Positions 15,629-23,410 of a stretch of 64,000 bases of DNA are shown here, one piece after another (position 1 is the stretch's first letter; each line of letters opens with the position of its first letter). Where the stretch lies: NCBI RefSeq assembly GCF_024228675.1, contig NZ_CP100461.1, forward strand, positions 1,736,001 to 1,800,000. Reading direction: 5' to 3'. The position numbers and the translations under genes are program-made. This DNA is from Salinigranum marinum (GTDB lineage Archaea; Halobacteriota; Halobacteria; Halobacteriales; Haloferacaceae). Below the pieces are notes generated by a model, which searched no databases, was not told the origin of the DNA, and saw nothing but the letters and a program-made list of their open reading frames with translations.

Positions 15629-15637
15629 GGATTACAA
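15629..15637 (-). promoter_or_regulatory. Core promoter of the agl23-like gene
   Basis: On the minus strand, TTGTAATCC is centred about 26 nt before the ATG at 15607, the spacing expected for a leaderless haloarchaeal transcript. The tandem repeat array begins 3 bp further upstream, so its first copy occupies the BRE and activator/repressor zone of this promoter. Confidence 0.45.
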
Positions 15638-15639
15638 CT

Positions 15640-15795
15640 CTTGTGTTACGTGTCGGATGTGACGGCTTGTGTTACGTGTCGGATGTGACGGCTTGTGTTA
15701 CGTGTCGGATGTGACGGCTTGTGTTACGTGTCGGATGTGACGGCTTGTGTTACGTGTCGGATGTGACGGCTTGTGTTACGTGTCGGACGTGACGG
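15640..15795. repeat. Six-copy 26-bp tandem repeat
   Basis: Six head-to-tail copies of a 26-bp unit begin at 15640, 15666, 15692, 15718, 15744 and 15770. The unit starts CTTGTGTTACGTGTCGG and ends ATGTGACGG. The first five copies are identical; the sixth has one change (GGACGT for GGATGT). There are no spacers, so this is not a CRISPR array. The array lies between two divergent promoters, that of the agl23-like gene (which it touches) and that of the alcohol dehydrogenase 110 bp away. The 26-bp period is about 2.5 helical turns. Confidence 0.98.
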
Positions 15796-15905
15796 CTGTC
15801 CCGTCCGTGACCCGGGTCCGGCGGCGGACCGGACGACGACCGCTCCGAAGCCCACGGCTCGTGTCTCCCGCGGTGACTGTCAGGCGACGTATCAAATACA
15901 TCATC

Positions 15906-15915
15906 ATTTATAATG
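15906..15915 (+). promoter_or_regulatory. Core promoter of the zinc alcohol dehydrogenase gene
   Basis: ATTTATAATG, in an otherwise GC-rich stretch, is centred about 29 nt before the ATG at 15940. This is a strong TATA box, with the start site predicted within a few bases of the ATG, so the mRNA is probably leaderless. An AT-rich run (ATCAAATACATCATC) directly precedes it. Confidence 0.65.
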
Positions 15916-15939: not shown

Positions 15940-17013
15940 ATGAGAGCAGCAGTGTACCACGGGCAGAAGGACGTCCGGATCGAGGACGTCGAGCCGGGAG
16001 TCGTCGGCCCAGCGCAGGTACGGGTCGACGTAGAGACGTGTGGGATCTGCGGGACCGACCTCCACGAGTACGCCGCGGGCCCGATCTTCATTCCGGGCGA
16101 CGACCCGCACCCGGTCTCCGGGGAGCAGTTGCCCGTCACCATGGGCCACGAGTTCAGCGGCGTCGTGAGCGAGGTGGGCGAGGGCGTGACGTCGCTCGCC
16201 GAGGGTGACGCGGTCGCGATCAACCCTATCCTCTGTTGTGGCGAGTGCCGCCAGTGCGTCGAGGGGAACTACCACATCTGCGACTCGATCGGCTTCGTCG
16301 GCCTGTCGGGCGGCGGCGGGGGCTTCTCCGAGAGCGTCGTCGTCGACGAACACCAGGCCGTCCCCCTGGTCGAAGGCGTCCCCATCGAACACGGCGCGCT
16401 GGTCGAACCGCTGGCCGTCGGCCTGCACGCGGTCCGGCGTGCGGGCGTGCAGGCGGGCGATTCAGTCGCCGTCTTCGGCAGCGGCCCAATCGGCCTGTCG
16501 GTCATCCAGTCGGCGCGAGCGGCGGGCGCGGGGGATATCATCGTCTCCGAGCCGCGACCGGCACGCCGCGAACTGGCGACCGAATCGGGGGCGACGACGC
16601 TCATCGACCCGACCGAGACGGATGCCGTCGAGGAGGTCCGCGAACATACGGGCGGGGGTGCCGACCAGACGTTCGAGGTCGCGGGCATCGAGACGACGTA
16701 CAAACAGTCGATCCAGGCGACGCGTCCGCACGGGACGACGACTATCGTCAGCATCTTCGAGGAGGAAGCGAGTTCGCACCCGATCGACCTCGTGCTCGGC
16801 GAACGGACCATCACCGGGACGCTCGCGTACCTCGGGGGGCCGCGCTCGGCCGAGGAGTACGGCATGGTCATCGACATGCTCGCCAGCGGGGCGCTCGACG
16901 TCGACCCGCTGATCACGGCCCGCATCGACCTCGACGAGATCGTCGACCGCGGCTTCGAGTCGCTGTTGGACCCCGACAGCGACCAGGTGAAGATCCTCGT
17001 CACCCCTCGGTAA
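15940..17013 (+). CDS. Zinc-dependent alcohol/2,3-butanediol dehydrogenase family protein
   Basis: Medium-chain dehydrogenase of 357 aa. Catalytic zinc ligands are Cys34 (in TCGICGTDLHEY) and His70-Glu71 (in MGHEFSG); four structural zinc cysteines lie in ILCCGECRQCVEGNYHIC (100, 103, 106, 114). The Rossmann segment VAVFGSGPIGLSVIQSARAA binds NAD(P). The sequence is closest to the 2,3-butanediol/threonine dehydrogenase branch, but the substrate cannot be read from it. The ATG at 15940 is chosen over an in-frame ATG at 15913, which lies inside the TATA box. Confidence 0.88.
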   Translation: MRAAVYHGQKDVRIEDVEPGVVGPAQVRVDVETCGICGTDLHEYAAGPIFIPGDDPHPVSGEQLPVTMGHEFSGVVSEVGEGVTSLAEGDAVAINPILCCGECRQCVEGNYHICDSIGFVGLSGGGGGFSESVVVDEHQAVPLVEGVPIEHGALVEPLAVGLHAVRRAGVQAGDSVAVFGSGPIGLSVIQSARAAGAGDIIVSEPRPARRELATESGATTLIDPTETDAVEEVREHTGGGADQTFEVAGIETTYKQSIQATRPHGTTTIVSIFEEEASSHPIDLVLGERTITGTLAYLGGPRSAEEYGMVIDMLASGALDVDPLITARIDLDEIVDRGFESLLDPDSDQVKILVTPR

Positions 17014-23074: not shown

Positions 23075-23156
23075 CGTCGGCGCTCATGTCGTGTGGCTCG
23101 CGGTCGGTCGCCGTCGCTCGTCATCGCCACGCCATCGACGGGTGTGCAGATCGGAG

Positions 23157-23235
23157 CGACGACAGTGGGTGGAACCGGGCGACGACAGTGGGCGGAATCG
23201 GGCGACGACAGTGGGCGGAATCGGGCGACGACAGT
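23157..23235. repeat. 23-bp tandem repeat, 3.4 copies
   Basis: Three full units at 23157-23179, 23180-23202 and 23203-23225 and a 10-bp partial unit at 23226-23235. The unit begins CGACGACAGTGGGCGG. Copies 2 and 3 are identical and copy 1 differs at two positions. It lies in the 336-bp gap between two converging genes (stops at 23074 and 23411); I see no gene or clear terminator in the rest of the gap. Confidence 0.95.
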
Positions 23236-23410
23236 CCCCAGGGCGGTGAGACCACGGGCCTCCCCCAGCCGATTCGCGCTCTCGCTCCCTGCGGACGCTC
23301 GTGCGCTCATCCCTCGCACGAGCGTCCCCGCGGCACGGCGGCCGCGGGGGCCGCGCGCCACCGCACACACCGGCAACCGCTCCAGTCGGTGCCGGCCCGC
23401 TTCGAGTCCG

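Follow-up and report, generated by a model that had tools for sequence, protein, structure and literature searches.

A 26-bp tandem array of Salinigranum marinum ends inside the conserved core promoter of an agl23-like gene

Introduction

Does a run of near-identical repeats set directly against an archaeal promoter serve the gene beside it, or did it merely expand there? The question is raised by a tandem array in Salinigranum marinum, lying between an agl23-like gene and a divergently transcribed dehydrogenase gene, within a window of 64,000 nucleotides (positions 1,736,001 to 1,800,000 of contig NZ_CP100461.1). A sequence-only reading of this DNA had named recent expansion or selection as the origin of the array and had suggested either a repeated operator or a variable copy number that tunes expression of a surface-glycosylation gene. 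For Agl23 of Haloarcula hispanica, the accessible part of the published work describes a putative flippase for hexose-phosphodolichol, which also moves eukaryotic lipid-linked oligosaccharide in liposomes and is linked to glycosylation (PMC11182771). Here, we compare the array with the rest of its genome, with congeners and with orthologous promoters of the family.

Results

Structure and uniqueness of the array

TRF delimited an array of 158 bp with a period of 26, 6.1 copies, 99% matches and 0 indels, whose copies run head-to-tail without spacers (Table 1). In a pattern search, identical copies were located with starts at 15640, 15666, 15692, 15718 and 15744, and the copy distal-most from agl23 was found to differ by a single base. 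Both approaches agree with the earlier description of six near-identical 26-bp copies, five identical and one a single-base variant, with nothing between them. With a unit of tens of bases (about 10-100 bp being the usual range), a head-to-tail order, high identity and no spacers, the array has the features of a minisatellite. A CRISPR array was ruled out, as the repeats lack spacers, and a hairpin or structured single strand was rejected as well, given a DNA fold z-score of +0.69 and 155 of 200 shuffles that fold equally well or better.

Table 1 Features of the agl23-dehydrogenase intergenic region and its flanking genes (window coordinates).
Feature	Position	Strand	Description and basis
agl23-like gene, TIGR03663 / PMT_2 membrane protein, 584 aa	13853..15607	-	profile matches
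TATA-like box TTGTAATC of agl23	15630..15637	-	direct reading; centred 26.5 bp before ATG; usual leaderless spacing
agl23 core promoter AACACAAGAGTTGTAA, -40 to -25, conserved	15632..15647	-	its first 8 bases also form the end of the proximal array copy
26-bp tandem array, 6.1 copies	15640..15797	.	unit CTTGTGTTACGTGTCGGATGTGACGG on + strand, CCGTCACATCCGACACGTAACACAAG in agl23 direction; TRF, pattern search, unique in genome
Variant array copy, 1 base different	15770..15795	.	pattern search
TATA-like box TTTATAAT of divergent dehydrogenase	15907..15914	+	direct reading of sequence
Zinc-binding medium-chain dehydrogenase (preferred start)	15940..17013	+	profile matches; start backed by congeners' MRAAVYxGQKDV

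Not one of 100 dinucleotide shuffles of the window gave even a single match to the array unit at up to three mismatches. At the same tolerance, a 22-base core of the unit matched the 4.91-Mb genome at these six sites only, and no match was obtained in the three congeners G001, G002 and G003. A 191-base query across the array was run against 30 genomes including its own; apart from itself, the one match was to 31 bases of G001 that correspond to the core promoter.

Flanking genes

The agl23-like gene scores 415 bits against TIGR03663 ('flippase activity-associated protein Agl23'), well above the curated cut-off of 126, and also matches Pfam PMT_2. By its profile match it is a member of the Agl23 family, in agreement with the name given to it from the sequence alone. 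Two further paralogs matching TIGR03663 are encoded in the genome, at 46% and 39% identity.

For the dehydrogenase, the ATG at 15940 is a more likely start, judging from the congeners' sequences, than the longest-ORF start at 15913. Its TATA-like box lies 109 bp from the array, in agreement with the 110 bp given earlier as the distance to this divergent promoter. In G001, the region upstream of agl23 yielded no such dehydrogenase start, and its sequence, as read, appeared to encode ribH. The dehydrogenase beside agl23 may have been gained or lost within the genus.

Anatomy of the agl23 promoter

Read directly on the minus strand, the order of elements is array, AG, TTGTAATC, 22 bp and ATG. The array thus adjoins the agl23 promoter, as had been proposed, but the gap to the TATA-like box is 2 bp instead of the 3 bp given before, with the box best read as 15630-15637. 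The TATA-like box, centred 26.5 bp before the ATG, is where leaderless genes of haloarchaea normally have it. In Haloferax volcanii, according to the accessible part of one study, 72% of transcripts are leaderless and the TATA and BRE motifs read TTWT and CGAAA, respectively (PMC4983044). The conserved agl23 element, located at -40 to -25, stands where the basal promoter of haloarchaea (BRE, TATA and leaderless start) would be expected; it differs from that pattern in that its AACACAAG/AGTTGTAA deviates from the TTWT/CGAAA consensus seen in that part of the Haloferax volcanii study (PMC4983044) and has an unusual degree of conservation for this gene.

The array unit and the core promoter share the last 8 bases of the unit only, AACACAAG, at -40 to -33, and the remaining 18 bp of the unit lack conservation. 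GTAACACAAG is present in every array copy. Both the TATA box and the start of agl23 are situated beyond one end of the array and are intact. An inverted repeat, ACAA-GAG-TTGT, spans the BRE and TATA of AACACAAGAGTTGTAA.

Conservation of the core promoter among orthologs

Searched within a 19-base pattern, AACACAAGAGTTGTAA has a single occurrence in each of the four Salinigranum genomes. Within the family it is identical at 16/16 bases in 20 of 71 distinct orthologous loci and recognisable in most others. The 73 loci aligned correspond to these 71, as L082 and L084 come from the same genomes as L027 and L029; most of them belong to genomes of the family that gave a match (83 of 148 searched), and represent part of those 83. 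Loci with a motif match of at least 11/16 were kept (65 of 73). The eight dropped were L034, L042, L044 and L046, which carry a different promoter sequence (genus g38), and L090-L093 (genus g3). Across the 65 anchored promoters, mean information content was 1.65 bits at -40 to -25, where anchoring inflates the apparent conservation of the motif itself, against 0.18 at -58 to -41 and 0.05 at -80 to -59. The drop from 1.65 to 0.18 bits leaves most of the array unit without visible constraint.

As a control, the neighbouring ribH promoter, unanchored, reached a best 16-column mean of 0.82 bits (30 loci), and GGTAGTTCTTT recurs by eye in 13 of the 30. By this measure, with agl23 anchored and ribH unanchored, the agl23 core promoter is the more conserved of the two. 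The ribH control is nonetheless conserved as well, and strong gene-specific core promoters are therefore not peculiar to agl23 in this family.

At up to two mismatches, AACACAAGAGTTGTAA gave one match per genome, at the agl23 promoter, in six of the seven genomes searched; the seventh, G055 (62% complete), gave none. A single extra match with two mismatches was found in G002, at 242867. A regulon sharing AACACAAGAGTTGTAA was rejected, since apart from that one match the agl23 promoter is the sole match per genome in these six.

Traces of duplication in relatives

Among the 65 anchored orthologous promoters, that of S. marinum is alone in repeating its own left element in full. The nearest case is G002, with a single 9/10 copy 30 bp upstream; a few other promoters have 8/10 copies that are more distant. 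The sequence of G002 also shows a partial duplication, a 15-base exact direct repeat with a period of 28, which ends in AACACA beside the core and thus at the same place as the S. marinum array. None of 2000 shuffles equalled this repeat, and a direct repeat of the same length or longer was seen in one of 63 other promoters (L050), elsewhere in the upstream region. The spacer between agl23 and the dehydrogenase measures 332 bp in S. marinum, 179 in G002 and 156 in G003; five extra units make up 130 bp of the difference between S. marinum and its congeners. From the look of the sequences, a two-copy state ancestral to S. marinum and G002 is possible, but the units differ in length (26 vs 28 bp).

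Other arrays in this genome

In 1.244 Mb of the genome (59 stretches and the window), TRF returned 60 rows at a score of at least 80, many of which have periods that are multiples of three, a feature of coding repeats. The agl23-side array is the most homogeneous in this sample among those having at least four copies. From the 60 rows, 16 arrays were picked by hand, and a crude gene-calling script put 7 of the 16 in intergenic DNA; the array of L107 reaches the end of its locus and may be coding. One intergenic array, L152:764-933 (near 3,376,000 of contig C1), comprises 6.5 copies of 26 bp (86%), and another, at 23150-23235 of the window, comprises 3.7 copies of 23 bp between convergent genes. 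TRF found neither at the homologous loci of G001, G002 and G003. Lineage-specific intergenic arrays thus arise elsewhere in this genome, and a neighbouring promoter is unnecessary for this.

A GC-rich stretch with inverted repeats at about 23228-23368 of the window has many dispersed partial matches in congeners. A query holding it gave 35 matches in G003, possibly from a dispersed repeat family.

Discussion

The array is unique in its genome, absent from three congeners, and set against a core promoter that is conserved across the family. We consider it probable that it is a recent lineage-specific minisatellite, whose proximal end happens to fall in the intact agl23 core promoter and which has at most a graded effect on expression. 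The near-identity of the copies points to expansion, as does the lack of any match in G001-G003 although all four genomes retain an intact core element, and on these grounds the earlier suggestion of a recent expansion stands. A 26-bp segment, composed of 18 bp of non-conserved upstream DNA and the first 8 bp of the conserved core promoter, would have been duplicated in tandem, presumably by replication slippage or unequal recombination, and would then have grown to six copies in this Salinigranum lineage. Homogeneous copies with a lone variant at the distal edge appear consistent with either process. As the TATA box and the start lie intact outside the array, transcription should begin as in the array-free relatives. 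Extra copies upstream of the BRE would probably matter little, any influence via the upstream DNA being graded at most, and we infer that the array has no dedicated function.

Such an array resembles prokaryotic intergenic minisatellites or VNTR loci, which likewise consist of head-to-tail, spacer-free and near-identical units of tens of bases in intergenic DNA, and are present in one species while its congeners lack them at that locus. The agl23-side array differs from them in that it ends inside a core promoter, and its copy number is known from one genome per species. Two observations run counter to a neutral expansion, namely the homogeneity of the array within the sample and the stronger conservation of the core promoter relative to the ribH control. 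In addition, the same spot is duplicated in at least two species, S. marinum and G002, and selection could be a cause.

An operator array, in which a transcription factor would bind each 26-bp unit and extra copies would increase occupancy locally and so activate or repress agl23 (perhaps also the dehydrogenase), seems unlikely to us. It would fit with an array that abuts the BRE, with GTAACACAAG in all copies and with the similar element of G002, which is present twice at a spacing of 28 bp. However, 18 of the 26 unit bases are not conserved, the spacing varies by species (26 vs 28 bp), the dyad symmetry of the unit is weak by eye, and the other orthologous promoters examined are without arrays. 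No unit-like match occurs elsewhere in the genome, which argues against a regulon. The unit is thus neither conserved beyond the core promoter in orthologs nor recurrent at other genes. Moreover, 26 bp represents a half-integral number of turns (~2.5), which places neighbouring copies on opposite helix faces and provides no argument for a cooperative operator. The sites spaced 2.5 turns apart that had been proposed are disfavoured by this geometry, by the unconserved bases and by the missing arrays.

The repeated multiplication of this strip might instead have a cause in dosage. The Salinigranum DNA just upstream of the agl23 BRE, present as six 26-bp copies here and as ~1.5 copies of 28 bp in G002, would then have been multiplied because BRE-proximal extras alter the amount of a dolichol-sugar flippase, with promoter strength set by repeat number; we regard this as quite improbable.

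Even more doubtful is a variable-number repeat that tunes or switches agl23 expression in the manner of phase variation. In its favour, recombination between copies so alike should be easy, the array sits close to the promoter, and Agl23 is tied to glycosylation in the accessible part of the Haloarcula hispanica work (PMC11182771). As in phase-variable bacterial promoters, the agl23-side repeat lies near the promoter of a surface-modification gene. In those systems, repeat number alters the spacing between core promoter elements, or between an activator and the promoter. Here, in contrast, the core elements are all on one side of the repeat, and a change by whole units leaves their spacing unaltered. 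Because BRE, TATA and start keep their mutual distances whatever the length of the array, a spacing switch of the bacterial kind does not match this arrangement. Some intergenic arrays of this genome also lie apart from promoters, and both this and the unchanged spacing weigh against the phase-variation-like tuning of the sequence-only reading. A copy number collapsed or expanded by the assembler is very improbable: at 158 bp the array is close to a short read in length, but the 4.0-Mb contig suggests long reads and the one variant copy was kept separate, and a wrong count would not change our reading of the array's nature.

Our searches on tandem repeats in haloarchaeal promoters returned, in the portions of the literature accessible to them, no case of a repeat-number-controlled archaeal promoter, and a search of the Salinigranum literature, of similarly partial coverage, returned nothing on the agl23 array locus. 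Were the array to tune agl23, an archaeon would have a promoter controlled by repeat number, acting on a gene family with ties to surface glycosylation. For now the feature appears to be of an ordinary kind, though interestingly placed, and is not a proven gene switch. The main lesson as it stands is that lineage-specific minisatellites arise in haloarchaeal intergenic DNA, where they can terminate within a core promoter and yet leave it in place.
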